From Pseudomonadota bacterium (lineage in GTDB: Bacteria > Bdellovibrionota > UBA1018 > CAIMNF01): 64,000 bases of DNA. Positions 45,809 through 55,849 of the stretch are shown one piece after another. The stretch covers positions 71,274-135,273 of the forward strand of contig JAIXWV010000041.1 in the NCBI GenBank assembly GCA_027491115.1, read 5' to 3'. Numbering within the stretch: position 1 is the first letter of the stretch; every line of letters begins with the position of its first letter. The notes beneath the pieces were generated by a model. That model ran no database searches. It was not told the DNA's origin and saw only the letters and a program-made list of their open reading frames with translations. The position numbers and the translations under genes were made by a program.

Positions 45809-48517
45809 ATGGTTGCTTGGATTCTTCTTTCCCTGTTCCTCCCCTCCACCGAAGCCGCTGATGATTTGGGAACCCTGATCAAGCGGATCAATTGGTCGGA
45901 ACTGAACCTGCCGTTCGTGGCCAAGGTCCCCTCGGGAAAAAAATATTACCGGCTGACCTTTGAAGATGATTTCAAGGGCAAGCCGGATCAGTCCACCCGA
46001 AGCAACTACTGCTACGACGTTGCCAAGCCTCAGTGTTCCACCTGGTGGCAATCTGGTGAGACGACGAAGGACTGTCTCGACACCAGTCACACGCCCCCCA
46101 TCCGGGCCAATCTGAAATCAGCGCTTTACTCTTTGAACCCAGGTTCGAATTATGAGGGCCTTTCGCTAACCTCCATCCAGCAACTCTACGGTCAAACTCT
46201 GCAAGATAACTGGAAGCACCTCAACAAGTGCAACTGGGTCAGTTATTCGGGTGTGAACTGGATGGCCACGGATTACGGGAATCCGCCCCAGTATTCGTCA
46301 AAAATGGACGCATCTCAGGTAACGGTCGATCCCCAAGGTAAAGGCTACCTCATCCTTTCTGCTCGCAAAGGAAAGGTTGTAGAGGATTGTGCCTTCGGTG
46401 GCACCCATCACCTCTTGCCGAGTCGAGTGAGGACGGGGAGTGCGGAATCAGCCTGCCTGATCAAACCAGTGCCAGGGCTGGCCGGGCCCCTGGGAATCTA
46501 CTGGGTTGATAGTGACAAAAAATGGCCTGGAATCTACTACGCAAAAATCAACGGACAGTGCAGTTACGGTGGGCAAACGACTGCTGAAAGTCCGAACTGT
46601 CAGGTTCTCACCTTCAACCCAGGCGAACTGAGCCCCATGATCCGCTATGGGCTGGTTGCAGTAAACGGATCCGCTCAGTTGTTCTACTCAAACCACCAGA
46701 AGTTCGCGTGCCAGGACCACATTGAATACCCGACCAGTGGCGTAGCATTCAATCAGCTGAGCTGCCCAGTTTTAAATGGTGGAATTTCCTCAAAACACTT
46801 TTTCAATTCATCCGATCCGACCGACATGGCGGGCAAAAACGGTTTCTCTCAGCAGAACGGAGTTTTCGAGGTGAAGTTGAGGATCCCGAAGGGACCAGGC
46901 GCTTTTCCTGCCGCTTGGCTCATCCCGACGCGTGGAGGGTGGCCCTATTCCGGTGGAGAAATCGACATCATGGAGGCCCGGGACGATGCGAATGAAGTCC
47001 ACCAAACCTATCACCACGGCAAATGCATTGATTTTGTGAATCAAACCGAAATTTTACAAGATCCTGAAAACCCATTGGCCCGTGTCGAAAGTGGGAACTG
47101 TAGCAAGGCCCAGAATGCTTCCTCGGTCCAGTATTCGAGGGGGATTACCACCAGGCAAGTGATCGAAAACGAGTTCAACTCCCGAGATCATGTGTTTACC
47201 GCAGAATGGGATCAGACCGGAATCCGCTACTACGTCAACAACCGCCTGATGGATTCGATTCAAACAGGTTCCACCCCTGAAAAATACACCCATCTCGGAG
47301 GGTATCTCAATAGCCTGTCCACATCCCCCACGAATCTACCCGATGCCATTCCATCAAATCTTCGACAATTTACGGCAATCAACATGCCCCGGGACCCCTT
47401 CTACTGGATCCTGAACCACAGCACTTATGTGACCCAAACGGATCTGGGTAACTGGCAGAGCCAACACTTTCTGATCGACTACGTGAAAACCTACTCCTTA
47501 TGCCAGACACAAAAGGACTTCTGTCCGAATGGGGGCATTTTCCAAGAAGGCGTGGGTTGTGTTGTCACCAACCGCGATGGCCTTCAGACCATTCAGGCAT
47601 CTGCATGCGTGGAAAGCTTCAATTCCCGATTGTGCCCGAACGGGGGAAAACAGGCGGGACCGAATTGCTGGGTCCATGGATTTTCCAAACCGAAAATGAT
47701 CCCAGGAGTGAATTACTGGGTGGATCATCATCCCGCCTACGCCGGGATTTATTACGCAAAGGTGAATGGTGAATGCCCTTTTGGCGGCTCAAAGGGCGTG
47801 AATTGCATGATTGACAGTATCTCGCCAGGCATAGGCCCGAATGAAAACAGCAAGGTCCTCCCGGGCATTCAGTACTGGGTGGATACGAATCCTTCCTGGC
47901 CGGGCGTCTTTTACAGAAAAATCAACAACGCATGCCCGCTCGGCGGAAGCGGTCCTGCGAACAGTCCCAATTGCCAACTCCGTAGCTATCCTTCGGGGGC
48001 GCTGAGAACCACCGTCTCCTATTGGGTGGATACCGATCCACGTTGGCCAGGAGTGTATTACCAAAAAACGAAACAAGGATGCCCTTACGGAGGCACCTCG
48101 AGCGGGACCAGTCCGAACTGTCAGTTGACTCCCATGAGTGTCCCCTCGTTGTATCTGAATCCGAATGTTCAATATTGGGTGGATACCGATCTCAGATGGC
48201 CTGGACTGTATTATGCGAAGATCAACGGTTCTTGTCCATATGGAGGCAGCGTCGGTGTGAATTGCCAACTGAAGTCCTTTCCACTGACGGAAGGACCCTA
48301 TGTGATGCCGAATGTGAATTACTGGGTGGATACGAATCCTTCCTGGCCGGGAATTTACTACGCGAAAATCAATGGGGCCTGTCCTTATGGTGGAACTGCC
48401 GGTGTGAATTGCCAACTCCTTGCTTTCCCTGCTGGAGTGGTGGAGCCAGGGGTGAACTACTGGGTGGATAAGGATCCGAGATGGCCCGGAGTCTATTACC
48501 TCCCGGATTTCAGATGA
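45809..48517 (+). CDS. Secreted GH16-like glycoside hydrolase with repeated Cys/Trp modules
   Basis: A 902-residue secreted protein with a signal peptide (about 1-17). The catalytic core has GGEIDIMEAR, the GH16 ExDxxE signature with E384, D386 and E389, so cleavage of a beta-glucan, agar or carrageenan-type polymer is expected. A module built on YWVD..P.WPG.YYAKING.CPYGG....NCQ occurs seven times: once inserted before the catalytic motif (about 228-265) and six times in tandem at the C-terminus (about 634-902), where the last copy is cut short. Two CPNGG motifs precede the tandem array. The modules are probably disulfide-bonded carbohydrate or cell-surface binding units, but I cannot name the family. 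Confidence 0.8.
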   Translation: MVAWILLSLFLPSTEAADDLGTLIKRINWSELNLPFVAKVPSGKKYYRLTFEDDFKGKPDQSTRSNYCYDVAKPQCSTWWQSGETTKDCLDTSHTPPIRANLKSALYSLNPGSNYEGLSLTSIQQLYGQTLQDNWKHLNKCNWVSYSGVNWMATDYGNPPQYSSKMDASQVTVDPQGKGYLILSARKGKVVEDCAFGGTHHLLPSRVRTGSAESACLIKPVPGLAGPLGIYWVDSDKKWPGIYYAKINGQCSYGGQTTAESPNCQVLTFNPGELSPMIRYGLVAVNGSAQLFYSNHQKFACQDHIEYPTSGVAFNQLSCPVLNGGISSKHFFNSSDPTDMAGKNGFSQQNGVFEVKLRIPKGPGAFPAAWLIPTRGGWPYSGGEIDIMEARDDANEVHQTYHHGKCIDFVNQTEILQDPENPLARVESGNCSKAQNASSVQYSRGITTRQVIENEFNSRDHVFTAEWDQTGIRYYVNNRLMDSIQTGSTPEKYTHLGGYLNSLSTSPTNLPDAIPSNLRQFTAINMPRDPFYWILNHSTYVTQTDLGNWQSQHFLIDYVKTYSLCQTQKDFCPNGGIFQEGVGCVVTNRDGLQTIQASACVESFNSRLCPNGGKQAGPNCWVHGFSKPKMIPGVNYWVDHHPAYAGIYYAKVNGECPFGGSKGVNCMIDSISPGIGPNENSKVLPGIQYWVDTNPSWPGVFYRKINNACPLGGSGPANSPNCQLRSYPSGALRTTVSYWVDTDPRWPGVYYQKTKQGCPYGGTSSGTSPNCQLTPMSVPSLYLNPNVQYWVDTDLRWPGLYYAKINGSCPYGGSVGVNCQLKSFPLTEGPYVMPNVNYWVDTNPSWPGIYYAKINGACPYGGTAGVNCQLLAFPAGVVEPGVNYWVDKDPRWPGVYYLPDFR

Positions 48518-50995: not shown

Positions 50996-52630
50996 ATGCT
51001 TCCCCGCGCCCTCCACTCCCGCCTTTTACTGACTTCGACGCGCTCGAAATTACGTCTTTTGCAGCTCCTCATCGGGCCGAGCAGCTGGATCCGGAAAATT
51101 CTGGGATTGCCGACCAGCGGATTGGCTGTGACTCGTCAGGGATTGAAATGGTCTCTCGATCTCAGCGAAGCAATCGAGGCGAACCTCTACCTCACTGGGC
51201 GCTACGAACCGGAACTGTCGGACCTCATGGAACGGGAGATCACACCGGGTTCGATCGTCTTAGACATCGGCGCCAATCTCGGCGCCCACACGCTACCCCT
51301 TGCTCAAAGGGTGGGTCCCGAAGGGCGGATCATTGCGGTCGAAGCAACTGATTTTGCCATGAAGAAACTGCAGGTGAATCTGTCGCTGAACCCGTCACTC
51401 GAAAGCCGGGTCACTCCGGTTCACGCATTCCTTTGTGATCCTGAGCATTCCGACCTGCCCTCTTACGTTTCATCCAGTTGGTCCCTGAAAGGAGGGCTCA
51501 CCTCTCCCTACCGGAACGCTCTCGATCTGGGCTACGCCAAGCCCACGCTCGGTGCACAAACTCTGACGCTCGACCAACTTGTACAGGAACTCGAACTGGA
51601 ACGGGTCGATGCGATCAAAATCGATGTTGATGGACATGAGGCCTCGATCCTTCGGGGTGCGCGAGCAACACTCCAAAAACATTCACCTCTGATCTTTCTC
51701 GAATGTTCTCCCATCCACTACGAGGCCATGAAGACCACTTTCCGCGAACAACTGGATCTACTCTTGGCCGAAGGATACCGCTTCGAAGATGTGTTCGGGA
51801 ATCCACTTTCATCGGATCCGGAACAGATCCGTGCCTCGATTCCACGCGGTACACTCATCAATATTTTGGCCAAAAAGCAGGTGCATCAGAACCATCTCGA
51901 ACTGAAGAACCTGAACGAGGAAAGACTCGAGCTCTTGAAACATCGACTCTCGGCTTACATGGCCGGCCAGAGAGACTCCTGGAGTTACCTGAAGGTCATC
52001 CGCCCCGGCTATGCTTCAAAAGAACTCTACGCGATCTACATGATCGAGACCTATCACTACACTTTCCACAATTCTCGCAATCAAGCCAGGGTGGCCGCAC
52101 GAAAAGAATCACTCGATATCCAGTACATGAAGTTCTGCCTCCATCATGCTGAAGAGGAAGCCGGGCACGAACTCATGGCGGTTCACGACGTGAAGAACCT
52201 CGGTTTCACGGTTGAACCCTCTCATCTCCCCTCGCCCTTACCTGCCACACAGAAACTCATCGATTACCTCTACGAAGTTTCGGATACGGGCAATCCCCTC
52301 GCCCGTCTGGGCTACAGCTTTTGGGCGGAACGGGTTTATGATTACATCTCGCCCTTGCTCACCCTCATGAGAGTCGGAGTCGGCATCCCGAAGAACGCAA
52401 TGAGTTTCTTCACAGCGCATTCGACCATTGACGCCAAACATGCCGTTGAAATCGATCGGGCCATGATTCGTTTCGCCAAAACCGACGCCGATTGGAAGGC
52501 GATCGAGTCCTGCATGCTCGAATCCCTTGACCGGACCATCGCCATGACCCACGAAGTGCTCGCCGAGTACGACCGGTTCCTTGCGGGAGAATTCACCCGC
52601 TACGACTCGATCTTGAAAGGCCGGAAATGA
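50996..52630 (+). CDS. FkbM-type methyltransferase fused to heme-oxygenase-like diiron domain
   Basis: A 544-residue two-domain protein. Residues about 60-290 are an FkbM-family SAM methyltransferase with motif I VLDIGANLGAHT and a later IKIDVDGHE. Residues about 300-544 are all-helical and carry the ligand pattern of heme-oxygenase-like diiron oxidases: E351 with H354 or H358, E388-x2-H391 and D479-x2-H482. Such domains do N-oxygenation, C-C cleavage or decarboxylative oxidation in natural-product pathways. First gene of a three-gene overlapping operon. I do not know a characterised protein with this fusion; the substrate is probably lipid-linked judging from its neighbours. Confidence 0.8.
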   Translation: MLPRALHSRLLLTSTRSKLRLLQLLIGPSSWIRKILGLPTSGLAVTRQGLKWSLDLSEAIEANLYLTGRYEPELSDLMEREITPGSIVLDIGANLGAHTLPLAQRVGPEGRIIAVEATDFAMKKLQVNLSLNPSLESRVTPVHAFLCDPEHSDLPSYVSSSWSLKGGLTSPYRNALDLGYAKPTLGAQTLTLDQLVQELELERVDAIKIDVDGHEASILRGARATLQKHSPLIFLECSPIHYEAMKTTFREQLDLLLAEGYRFEDVFGNPLSSDPEQIRASIPRGTLINILAKKQVHQNHLELKNLNEERLELLKHRLSAYMAGQRDSWSYLKVIRPGYASKELYAIYMIETYHYTFHNSRNQARVAARKESLDIQYMKFCLHHAEEEAGHELMAVHDVKNLGFTVEPSHLPSPLPATQKLIDYLYEVSDTGNPLARLGYSFWAERVYDYISPLLTLMRVGVGIPKNAMSFFTAHSTIDAKHAVEIDRAMIRFAKTDADWKAIESCMLESLDRTIAMTHEVLAEYDRFLAGEFTRYDSILKGRK

Positions 52631-53655
52631 AACAGTTCAGACGCGAGCAAGAACTCCTGACCCGTCATCTCGAAGGCCGCTCCGTGGCGGGTTTCAGCCC
52701 GGCCCAAATGAAAGAGATCCAACACGAGGTGAAAACGATTCGAGAAGCATCCGATGCATCGCCTCTGTTGCACCAGTTCATGGAAGCCCTGCCCTTTTTC
52801 ATCCTGCTCACCGCTTGGGCCGGGTTGATCTTCCTAGTCCCGAGCATGATCTCTAACACCAACCTTTTATTCATCATTCTCTTCATCGGGCACGGCATCA
52901 TCGGATACCAATGGGTCATCTACGGCATCCATGAGGGCGCCGGCCACGGACTCTTCCGACGAGGCGACTCCCGGTTGCTCCGACTGATGCGTTTTCTCGC
53001 TTTTCACAGCTCCCGCCTCATGATGGCCGATCCGGTTCACTACCGCCAGCAACACAAGAGTCATCATCGATTCACCGGTACCGAGCAAGACGGCTCGCAA
53101 ACGAACTTTGTACTGGGCCGGAGGATCCTGGTGAGCTTGCTCCCGGGAGCCGGGATACTCTTTCCCAATGATTACCGCGTCCACCATGGCGACGGATTCA
53201 GCGGCTCACTGGCCCTGTCCGGGGTGGTCGGACTCACCCGAGTCGGAATCGAAATTCTGGAACTCCGGTCAAGATTCAGCATCGGGGAGTGCCTCGCCCT
53301 TTTGTTGATCTTTTCGCCTTGGGTGGGCCTTGCGCTGGATCGGATTCGAGAGAGCCTCGAGCATCACCTGATGCCCCAATCTCCGGTTCATGGCACACGT
53401 GAACTCGGACTTTCGCCTTTGGCACTGCTGATCGCTGGCGGCCCCTGGGGTCAGCCCTGTCATTTGTCCCATCACTTGGCCCCTGAATTGAACTGGTACC
53501 AACAGATCCGCCTCCACTTTATTTTACGGGACAGAATTCTGAATGAAGAACAGCTCCGTTTCTTCGGATTCAGAACCCCTTTTCTCCGACTTGTCCGTGA
53601 AGAAACCGAAAAGCATCTGGCTTTGGAGTACGGGCAGAACAGGAGTCGGATATGA
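52627..53655 (+). CDS. Membrane fatty-acid desaturase/hydroxylase-like protein
   Basis: A 342-residue integral membrane di-iron enzyme. The three His clusters are intact: HEGAGH (H102, H106), HYRQQHKSHH (H138, H143, H146, H147) and HLSHH (H279, H282, H283), with an extra HH in ESLEHHL. Hydrophobic segments lie at about 55-90 and 200-235. It could desaturate or hydroxylate an acyl chain or a lipid head group. Overlaps the genes on both sides by 4 bp (ATGA), so is translationally coupled in the operon. Confidence 0.85.
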   Translation: MKQFRREQELLTRHLEGRSVAGFSPAQMKEIQHEVKTIREASDASPLLHQFMEALPFFILLTAWAGLIFLVPSMISNTNLLFIILFIGHGIIGYQWVIYGIHEGAGHGLFRRGDSRLLRLMRFLAFHSSRLMMADPVHYRQQHKSHHRFTGTEQDGSQTNFVLGRRILVSLLPGAGILFPNDYRVHHGDGFSGSLALSGVVGLTRVGIEILELRSRFSIGECLALLLIFSPWVGLALDRIRESLEHHLMPQSPVHGTRELGLSPLALLIAGGPWGQPCHLSHHLAPELNWYQQIRLHFILRDRILNEEQLRFFGFRTPFLRLVREETEKHLALEYGQNRSRI

Positions 53656-54326
53656 GACTTTTGCTTACCCTGATCGAGCTCTTGGCCTTTCGTCCTTTCC
53701 GGGCAATCCTTCAGCTGTATATTCATTTCGGTCCGGCCCGCTTCCAGAAAATCAGACTCGGCTCAGAGCTGTCCGAAGCCACCCTCAATGAGATCTCCCG
53801 CTTCAGGAAGACCCAGTACGAAGGAAGTCAGCCCTACCTGATTCCCGATTCGCCAGAAGCTGTGACGGAGGAGAATCACCTCGACCTCCGTTCCTACCAT
53901 GGCATTGCTCGGGATCGCTCAGGGAACATCATCGCCGTGGCTCGCTTCACGCCCTATCCATTTGAGACCACTCGCTTGCTCGGGGCCGAACTCACAACCC
54001 CGTTCCGGGAGCACCTGGAAATCTCGAGAGTGGTCACCTCCAAACGCAGGTCCGGGATCGGTCGGAGGCTGTTGATTCAAGGCGGGTGCTTTGCCATTTC
54101 CACCAAGCGATACCGGGGTTTCGTGGCGGTGTGCAAATCGGGGAACCTCGCGATTTTCGAGAAATTCGGACTCGGCACCCACGGTCGGCACCTCATTCCG
54201 GGGCGTCCGGCCTCTCCTTATCACTTCATCTCGGCCGACTTCTTCAGAATCACCGTCACCACTTTCGCCTACACAGGACGAAAATTCGCTCACGCGTGTT
54301 CCGTGATTCTTAGCCCGTTTCTTTGA
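53652..54326 (+). CDS. GNAT/LuxI-like N-acyltransferase
   Basis: A 224-residue protein with a hydrophobic N-terminus and a GNAT-type core. The arrangement of a GIARDRSGNIIAVARF strand pair followed by LEISRVV and GIGRRLL resembles LuxI-type autoinducer synthases and FeeM-type N-acyl amino acid synthases, which take acyl chains from acyl-ACP. An acyl amide product is therefore possible. Overlaps the desaturase gene by 4 bp and the convergent ferritin-like gene by 17 bp. Family assignment is from pattern only. Confidence 0.6.
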   Translation: MRLLLTLIELLAFRPFRAILQLYIHFGPARFQKIRLGSELSEATLNEISRFRKTQYEGSQPYLIPDSPEAVTEENHLDLRSYHGIARDRSGNIIAVARFTPYPFETTRLLGAELTTPFREHLEISRVVTSKRRSGIGRRLLIQGGCFAISTKRYRGFVAVCKSGNLAIFEKFGLGTHGRHLIPGRPASPYHFISADFFRITVTTFAYTGRKFAHACSVILSPFL

Positions 54327-55224
54327 CTTCGAACACGCCGTCACGTTCCAGTCGGTGAACCAGCTGCTCACGGTCGGCCTTCAGAAGCATCTCTTTCAGC
54401 GACTCAAGCCGTTTCTCCAGTACCTGTCTATACCCCACGGCCTCGAGGTGATGCCTGCGTGCCTCCGCCGAAATCGGTCCCCCCACTTCCTCGAGGGCCC
54501 TCAGTACCCAATTGGCCGACTGAAGTGCCCCCACGAACTCACGGGTGAACTCGAAGCACTCGTCGCGATCTCCTTTTTTCAGTACGCCTTCTTTGGCAAG
54601 AACAAGACCTGCACCATGGTGCCGGGCCTCATCACGCAATATTTTCTGGAACGCCTGAACCAGTCCCGGATGACGGCAGTCTTGCATCAGGGAACGGTAA
54701 TGCCCCATTCCGAACCCCTCCAGCAGAACCTGGATCAGGAGCACACAAGCCTCCTTACTCCCATCCCGGATCACTCTCGCCAAGGGATCGAGCATCGGGT
54801 GCCAATCCACGGAGGGGTCCGGGGTGAACCGCATGAAATTCCGGAACAAACGCAGGTGAATCGCTTCCTCGGCCGAAAACAGACAATAAAGGGACTTCTC
54901 CTCCATCCGGTCGGCAAGGAGGATCATCTTCGCTCCGTAATTGTGGCCCGACTTTTCGATGAAATAAGACAAACTCAAGTTCCATCTCGAAATCTTCTGA
55001 AGCACCTCCGTCTGCTGATGGGGCTCGAGTCTTGTATACACCGATGAATGTTCCAGACCGTACCGTTCCGGCCCCCAAAGGCTGTCGGGCAAGTCCGACA
55101 CCGGCTTCGTCACCCCGTACTGTTCAAGCCCCCGGTCGAGAATGCTCACGATCGGGTGTTCCGCATCAAGACTTGGCGCGAAGAAAATCGAATCGTCCGT
55201 GAAGTAACTCTTCAAATCGTTCAT
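54310..55224 (-). CDS. Ferritin-like diiron protein
   Basis: A 304-residue helical protein. The residues E90, E120-x2-H123, E169 and E199-x2-H202 match the diiron ligand set of the ferritin-like superfamily (ribonucleotide reductase R2, AurF-type oxygenases). It may be an oxygenase acting on the product of the opposing genes. ATG 55224 follows GGGAGG; an in-frame codon further upstream is possible. Overlaps the upstream beta-helix acyltransferase gene by 59 bp. Converges on the N-acyltransferase gene. Confidence 0.72.
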   Translation of the reverse strand: MNDLKSYFTDDSIFFAPSLDAEHPIVSILDRGLEQYGVTKPVSDLPDSLWGPERYGLEHSSVYTRLEPHQQTEVLQKISRWNLSLSYFIEKSGHNYGAKMILLADRMEEKSLYCLFSAEEAIHLRLFRNFMRFTPDPSVDWHPMLDPLARVIRDGSKEACVLLIQVLLEGFGMGHYRSLMQDCRHPGLVQAFQKILRDEARHHGAGLVLAKEGVLKKGDRDECFEFTREFVGALQSANWVLRALEEVGGPISAEARRHHLEAVGYRQVLEKRLESLKEMLLKADREQLVHRLERDGVFEVKETG

Positions 55225-55849
55225 GATGCCTCCCTTCCGGAATCTCCTGATTCGGATATACCACCGCCCCGGCCTCAATGAAGGCCCCGTCTCCGATCAC
55301 AGTTCCGGGGGCCAGTGTGGCTGAAAAAGAAACCACCACGTCAGATCCGACCCGGACCTCTTTGACGAACAACTGATAGCGATCTTGTTTCTTTTTGATC
55401 GCATGAGCCGTGATGTAGGATTGGTTTCCGATCAAGCACCGATCGCCGATGCGCACGAAAGGGCGATCCACAATCTTGCATCCTGCAGTCCAGTTCACCT
55501 TCTTTCCGATCCGGGCCCCCCAGAGCCTGAGCCACATCGAATACACCCCGGGAAAAGTTTTCAGTACCCGCTCGAAAACCTCGAAGGTCTCGTAGATCTC
55601 TTGCAACCGGTGGCTCACGAGCCAAAGACTCCCCGTTTCAACCTTCACACCGATCCGGCTCACCAGCGGAACCGGTCCGTAAACCGAGCTCATCAACCGC
55701 CAAATCAGAGGCGACTGGAGATACAAGGCGAATATGGCGAAAGGAAGAAACAGGCCTTCCCAGTCATCTGTCCAAAAAAAGAGCAGGCCGAGCTCCAAAT
55801 AGAGCACCGGGGTGTAAAACCTGAATACCAGATCCAGAAATTTCGGCAT
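55166..55849 (-). CDS. Left-handed beta-helix acyltransferase-like membrane protein
   Basis: A 227-residue protein with one or two N-terminal membrane segments (about 10-50) and a C-terminal hexapeptide-repeat domain (IGDRCLIGNQSYITAH, VRVGSDVVVSFSATLAPG, IGDGAFIEAGAVV). This fold is shared by many acetyl- and acyltransferases. Its 3' part overlaps the ferritin-like gene, so the two are coupled. It starts 20 bp after the 138-residue secreted-protein gene on the same strand. Confidence 0.68.
   Translation of the reverse strand: MPKFLDLVFRFYTPVLYLELGLLFFWTDDWEGLFLPFAIFALYLQSPLIWRLMSSVYGPVPLVSRIGVKVETGSLWLVSHRLQEIYETFEVFERVLKTFPGVYSMWLRLWGARIGKKVNWTAGCKIVDRPFVRIGDRCLIGNQSYITAHAIKKKQDRYQLFVKEVRVGSDVVVSFSATLAPGTVIGDGAFIEAGAVVYPNQEIPEGRHHERFEELLHGRFDFLRAKS

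Follow-up and report, generated by a model that had tools for sequence, protein, structure and literature searches.

Five overlapping genes and their predicted products

A block of five consecutive genes lies at positions 50996-55849 of the window, the 64,000-nucleotide stretch of Bdellovibrionota DNA analysed here. The host genome is 2.55 Mb in size and 98.7% complete, and the window lies on its contig C43. A first-pass annotation had proposed that the block encodes a specialised-lipid or N-acyl product pathway. The genes and domains are:

50996-52630, plus strand: FkbM-HDO fusion gene, an open reading frame of 544 amino acids (aa)
50996-51895, plus strand: FkbM-family S-adenosylmethionine (SAM) methyltransferase domain, covering ~300 aa at the N-terminus of the fusion (PF05050 E 3e-18; TIGR01444 E 4e-24)
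51896-52630, plus strand: haem-oxygenase-like diiron oxidase (HDO) domain (PF14518, Haem_oxygenas_2, E 6e-16)
52627-53655, plus strand: membrane fatty-acid desaturase/hydroxylase-superfamily gene (PF00487 weak; His boxes HEGAGH, HKSHH and HLSHH)
53652-54326, plus strand: LuxI/FeeM-type GNAT N-acyltransferase gene (profile match to the acyl-homoserine lactone (AHL) synthase 3p2f)
54310-55224, minus strand: putative ferritin-like diiron oxidase gene, P4 (E90, E120xxH123, E169, E199xxH202)
55166-55849, minus strand: HEX gene, a hydrophobic N-terminus plus a left-handed beta-helix (hexapeptide) acyltransferase (PF00132 E 5e-11)

Along the block, neighbouring genes overlap by 4, 4, 17 and 59 bp, the last being the overlap of HEX with the start of P4. 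Three plus-strand genes face two minus-strand genes and converge at 54310-54326. These coordinates agree with the earlier description of five consecutive genes overlapping by 4-59 bp on converging strands. Promoter and terminator scans of the locus gave matches no better than chance.

The first-pass annotation had also described an FkbM-diiron fusion. This is indeed one reading frame, but its diiron half is an HDO and not a ferritin, and the fusion was found only in the genus of the window. Elsewhere FkbM and HDO are two genes, FkbM being a gene of its own at loci L050, L051 and L053. The predicted HDO metal ligands (domain numbering) are E88, H91, E145, H175, D179 and H182, and the motifs E88-x2-H91, E145 and H175-x3-D179-x2-H182 are unchanged in 30 of 30 collected homologues. 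The domain thus carries the three His and three carboxylates that its superfamily positions on three core helices, arranged as D/E-x2-H, E and H-x3-(D/E)-x2-H; in AetD this pattern reads D-x2-H, E, H-x3-E-x2-H (PMC11611611). Both the order of the ligand residues and the motif spacing are those published for the superfamily (UndA, BesC, SznF, MboA, CADD), whereas the FkbM fusion was seen here in the window genus only. A possible seventh ligand, E51, is unchanged in all 16 close orthologues aligned; it may represent the extra Glu that SznF-type (3-His/4-carboxylate) enzymes have on auxiliary helix 2.

The HDO family profile matched PDB 3dde nearly full-length (290 bits, E 1e-85), and this match to a solved structure assigns the haem-oxygenase fold. 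By sequence, 3dde, which was solved with its function unassigned, is orthologous to the window HDO. We take its source to be Shewanella denitrificans, and its genomic neighbourhood may include a related cluster outside the phylum.

In the desaturase, the His residues of the three boxes are unchanged in 15 of 15 homologues, and hydropathy gives five, partly overlapping, hydrophobic segments. Both features, the trio of His boxes and multiple transmembrane helices, are typical of the membrane desaturase superfamily. The FA_desaturase match is weak for the window copy (1e-5) and above the cut-off for a relative (3e-13). The closest named relative with this desaturase is a Bdellovibrionales metagenome-assembled genome, and a search for related solved structures found none.

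Pfam gave a weak GNAT match for the window N-acyltransferase, and its family profile matched AHL synthase 3p2f with E 1e-4. The AlphaFold model (pLDDT 82) has a GNAT fold, and the AHL synthases LasI and MesI had the top query TM score, 0.57, among the matches listed. R98 and E123 are unchanged in all homologues and R126 in 12 of 13; R98 and E123xxR126 align to the R and E-x-x-R of 3p2f. A GNAT fold and the LuxI core residues, R and E-x-x-R, occur together in this protein. LuxI AHL synthases also use a conserved Trp and an acidic pair that assist SAM binding. In the family alignment to 3p2f the position of this N-terminal Trp is not Trp, and the acidic pair is kept in part only. The window copy matched neither PF21926 (FeeM) nor PF13444 (OlsB-type); its relatives score 17-25 bits against PF21926, for which the cut-off is 27.

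P4 gave weak single-sequence matches throughout (AurF, Ferritin_2, R2-like), and its ligand set is unchanged in 12 of 12 homologues. The HEX profile matched galactoside acetyltransferase 1kqa (E 1e-9). HEX has both the repeats and the catalytic His of hexapeptide (LbetaH) acyltransferases: H149 is unchanged in 13 of 13 homologues and aligns opposite the His of the galactoside acetyltransferase GHP motif.

Co-occurrence and inheritance of the gene set

Whether the five families travel together was examined with an HDO profile search of 369 genomes of the phylum. The profile scored above 218 bits at 19 places, and the next score was 99 bits, which leaves a clean gap. Sixteen of these places scored at least 286 bits each and were treated as close HDO orthologue loci, and their neighbourhoods were examined. 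HEX was a neighbour in 14 of the 16, the GNAT in 13, P4 in 12, the desaturase in 9 and FkbM in 5. Several missing partners fall at contig ends (L057, L062, L064 and possibly L054). The genes lie side by side in shuffled orders: FkbM-GNAT-HDO-HEX-P4-desaturase in L051, GNAT-FkbM-desaturase-HEX-P4-HDO in L050 and, along their own strand, GNAT-HDO-HEX-P4 in L058 and L059. Genome-level Fisher tests over the 369 genomes, uncorrected for phylogeny, gave p 2e-15 for HDO-GNAT, 2e-14 for GNAT-P4 and 2e-8 for HDO-P4. These data indicate strong linkage. The five families first proposed are in effect a core of four genes, for the N-acyltransferase, HDO, HEX and P4, with the desaturase and FkbM as optional decorations.

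Partners are also replaced. Where this GNAT is missing, at L063, a different FeeM-type protein is encoded 2 kb away; it falls just short of the PF21926 cut-off (E 2e-5). P4 was found nowhere in genomes G029 and G141, and in both a cytochrome P450 (P450) and a sulfotransferase adjoin the cluster. UDP-glycosyltransferases lie near the cluster in L050, L054 and L063, and MMPL-type transporters in L053, L058 and L059. The replacements, glycosyltransferases and transporters suggest one shared scaffold whose oxidation and capping vary and which some species export; methyl, glycosyl, sulfate and P450 decorations would be interchangeable. The three remaining HDO places (218-228 bits) are without these partners. 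Two of them, L065 and L067, instead have genes for a PlsC-type acyltransferase, a TylF-type methyltransferase and an Asp/Arg-hydroxylase family protein; this last family is that of LpxO/OlsC.

The five genes are real and under purifying selection. Between the window and its closest carrier, G007, the proteins are 76-84% identical, and the ratio of nonsynonymous to synonymous substitution rates (dN/dS) is 0.065-0.107 for FkbM-HDO, the desaturase, P4 and HEX. In the GNAT, where dS has reached saturation, the corresponding ratio of proportions (pN/pS) is 0.19. We saw no sign of a housekeeping orthologue: within the genus, close HDO, P4 and GNAT orthologues occur in 2 of 12 genomes, the host genome (G000) and G007. 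In genome G001 the two flanking genes stand directly next to each other, 120 bp apart (L158, 8955/9076), which makes this an empty site, and in G007 the five genes lie exactly between homologues of these two genes. Two sister genomes are thus set apart from a third by the five genes alone. The gene set is therefore present or absent as a block, and it is compact and transferable.

GNAT-HDO pairs were also found on plasmids of Deefgea and Pseudomonas syringae; the plasmid search found no relative of the desaturase or of P4. On the Deefgea piscis plasmid NZ_CP054144.1 (L079, 25179-29699), a row of genes between transposases encodes a FeeM-like GNAT, an HDO, DUF3419, speD, a small monooxygenase-like protein and a beta-lactamase-family serine hydrolase. 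We take DUF3419 to be a BtaA-like SAM aminocarboxypropyl transferase family. The pair on a conjugative plasmid of P. syringae pv. actinidiae (L080) neighbours genes for a PaaK-like ligase, a flavodoxin-family protein, an EamA transporter, an alpha/beta hydrolase and an anthranilate-synthase pair. A viral origin was rejected, as two viral-contig scans contained no relative.

Our broad genome-collection scan used the desaturase as its sole query. At the Myxococcus loci L013 and L014, a desaturase relative is followed by a flavin adenine dinucleotide (FAD) amine-oxidase-type protein and a 2300-aa type I polyketide synthase with a thioesterase-like domain at its N-terminus. At L018 the desaturase adjoins a relative of this synthase.

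Positions 45809-48517 encode a protein of 902 aa that resembles GH16 and carries, towards its C-terminus, tandem repeats with the motif YWVD..P.WPG(V/I)YY. This gene and its neighbours separate a helicase gene from the five-gene block in the window and not in G007.

A candidate pathway for an oxidised N-acyl amino-lipid

With moderate confidence, we interpret the locus as a compact and transferable set of genes that would make a heavily oxidised, as yet undescribed N-acyl amino-lipid. Linkage and block inheritance bear out the earlier pathway proposal in part; the product is a prediction, and P4-HEX also occurs without HDO elsewhere. We infer the substrate, reaction order and product as follows. 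The membrane desaturase would modify a fatty chain, and the LuxI/FeeM-type enzyme would move the fatty acyl group from acyl carrier protein (ACP) or coenzyme A onto the amino group of an amino acid or of an acceptor resembling one. The HDO would then use O2 to oxidise the N-acyl amino acid by desaturation, decarboxylation or N/C-oxygenation. P4 would make a second O2-dependent oxidation, which P450 may perform in two relatives. HEX would acylate a hydroxyl arising from oxidation, and the FkbM half of the fusion would methylate another. Only about 12 HDOs have a validated function, and the characterised substrates are mostly fatty or amino acids (PMC13108848). An N-acyl amino acid belongs to both kinds. 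The glycosyltransferases and MMPL-type transporters of relatives fit a capped, exported lipid.

The best known parallel is found in the TyzABC/OxzAB acyl-oxazolone pathways. In these, a FeeM/AHL-synthase-fold enzyme N-acylates an amino acid, and the acylated product is then oxidised with O2 (TyzA/TyzC; PMC10404671). The window core would most simply follow this logic with diiron enzymes as the oxidases, and O-acylation by HEX and O-methylation by FkbM would come after them. Their own oxidase is of the flavin nitroreductase type and acts with a ThiF cyclase, neither of which is among the five window genes; the window set instead joins two predicted diiron oxidases to a desaturase and a methyltransferase, and has a further acyltransferase. 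FeeM clusters, whose synthase N-acylates amino acids with acyl-ACP, share a FeeM-type GNAT, and the Deefgea homologue and the L063 replacement match PF21926 below its cut-off, whereas the window copy misses it and the partner genes are unlike. To our knowledge, no characterised HDO pairs with an N-acyltransferase of this type. We found no description of this enzyme combination, nor of such lipids in predatory bacteria, in the open-access papers searched. If correct, the proposed pathway would extend an established scheme, in which an amino acid is N-acylated and then oxidised, to diiron enzymes. The compact, block-wise gene set and the solved orthologue 3dde make a new HDO reaction directly testable.

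Several observations weigh against this pathway. The five window genes include no ACP, ligase or exporter. The relation of the N-acyltransferase to LuxI is distant (E 1e-4), and Foldseek scores generic GNATs similarly. P4 is predicted to be all-helical, but the pLDDT of its model is only 51, too poor for a fold search, and HEX could be an acetyltransferase instead of a long-chain acyltransferase. Finally, desaturase relatives in Myxococcus and Acidobacteria stand apart from the gene set: no GNAT was found in the desaturase-carrying genomes and HDO matches there were below 54 bits, both in genomes that lacked a positive control. This separation would be expected if the genes shared a location and no pathway, an idea to which we give almost no credence. 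Linkage statistics, adjacency despite shuffling, the gene fusion and the empty site all oppose it, and chance co-location was rejected on these grounds.

An ornithine-type lipid made elsewhere might instead be the substrate. Ornithine-lipid logic (OlsB/OlsA with OlsC/OlsE-type hydroxylation) joins an N-acyltransferase, a second acyltransferase and iron oxygenases on an amino-acid lipid, and the host genome has a likely pair of this type on contig C12 (L164, 1360-2962), where an OlsB-type Acetyltransf_5 gene overlaps a PlsC-type acyltransferase gene. The locus would then be a tailoring kit that oxidises, acylates and methylates the lipid already made by this OlsB/OlsA-like pair. The related HDOs of L065 and L067, which sit with PlsC-type, TylF and Asp/Arg-hydroxylase genes, point the same way. 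However, 13 of the 16 loci have their own, different N-acyltransferase, which such a kit would not need, and we consider this explanation rather unlikely. The enzyme logic is alike, but the window GNAT is without PF13444 and the second acyltransferase is a beta-helix protein, not PlsC. Since the genome has a separate OlsB/PlsC-type pair, the role of standard aminolipid enzyme does not fall to the window GNAT.

It is more doubtful still that the LuxI-like enzyme makes an AHL-like secreted signal that the other enzymes decorate. The top solved-structure profile match is an AHL synthase, with which the family shares the GNAT fold and the R98 and E123xxR126 positions, and the P. syringae plasmid encodes a LuxR regulator ~5 kb from its GNAT-HDO pair. 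The window family is nevertheless without the conserved N-terminal Trp, and the host genome has no autoinducer-binding LuxR receptor (PF03472), which counts against a plain AHL signal there. Three oxidases and a second acyltransferase are also more than AHL pathways use; we know of none with such a set. A similarly low probability goes to a small amide that serves as an antibiotic or binds metal; HDO and P4 would N-oxygenate it, and its fatty chain would be incidental. N-oxygenases include the HDO SznF and the ferritin-like AurF/CmlI (PMC13108848), P4 is weakly AurF-like, and E51 could complete the SznF seven-ligand set. Against this, the membrane desaturase and the MMPL-type transporters and fatty-acid hydroxylases of related clusters indicate lipid substrates.

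P4 and HEX in other cluster types

P4 is present in 52 of the 369 phylum genomes. In most P4 neighbourhoods examined HEX is close by and often adjacent, including cluster types without HDO. Loci L101-L106 (families f13 and f18) combine GNAT-HEX-P4 with a PEMT-like methyltransferase and no HDO, and all except L101 have a Coq4-like protein. A larger cluster type with P4 and HEX occurs in several Bdellovibrionota families, mostly f15 (L109-L119, L123, L125-L132). It contains up to three Rieske oxygenases, a short-chain dehydrogenase/reductase, a fatty-acid hydroxylase and a GH3-family protein; several of these loci also have a ferredoxin, an Mpo1-like protein, or an MMPL or SBF transporter. In appearance these Rieske/GH3 clusters are a tailoring pathway, so far undescribed, for lipids or sterol-like compounds. 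GH3 enzymes form acyl-amino-acid amides, and the amide theme may therefore extend to them.

Tentatively, the window locus may be one branch of a family of lipid pathways in predatory Bdellovibrionota. Each would join P4-HEX to an amide-forming enzyme (a LuxI/FeeM-type GNAT or a GH3-family protein) and to iron oxygenases that can replace one another (HDO, Rieske, fatty-acid hydroxylase or P450), and would make undescribed, multiply oxidised, capped and possibly exported aminolipids.

At L107 and L108, with neither GNAT nor HDO nearby, HEX-P4 lies beside a YcaO-OsmC protein and a protein of 919-920 aa, the L107 copy of which has no Pfam match.

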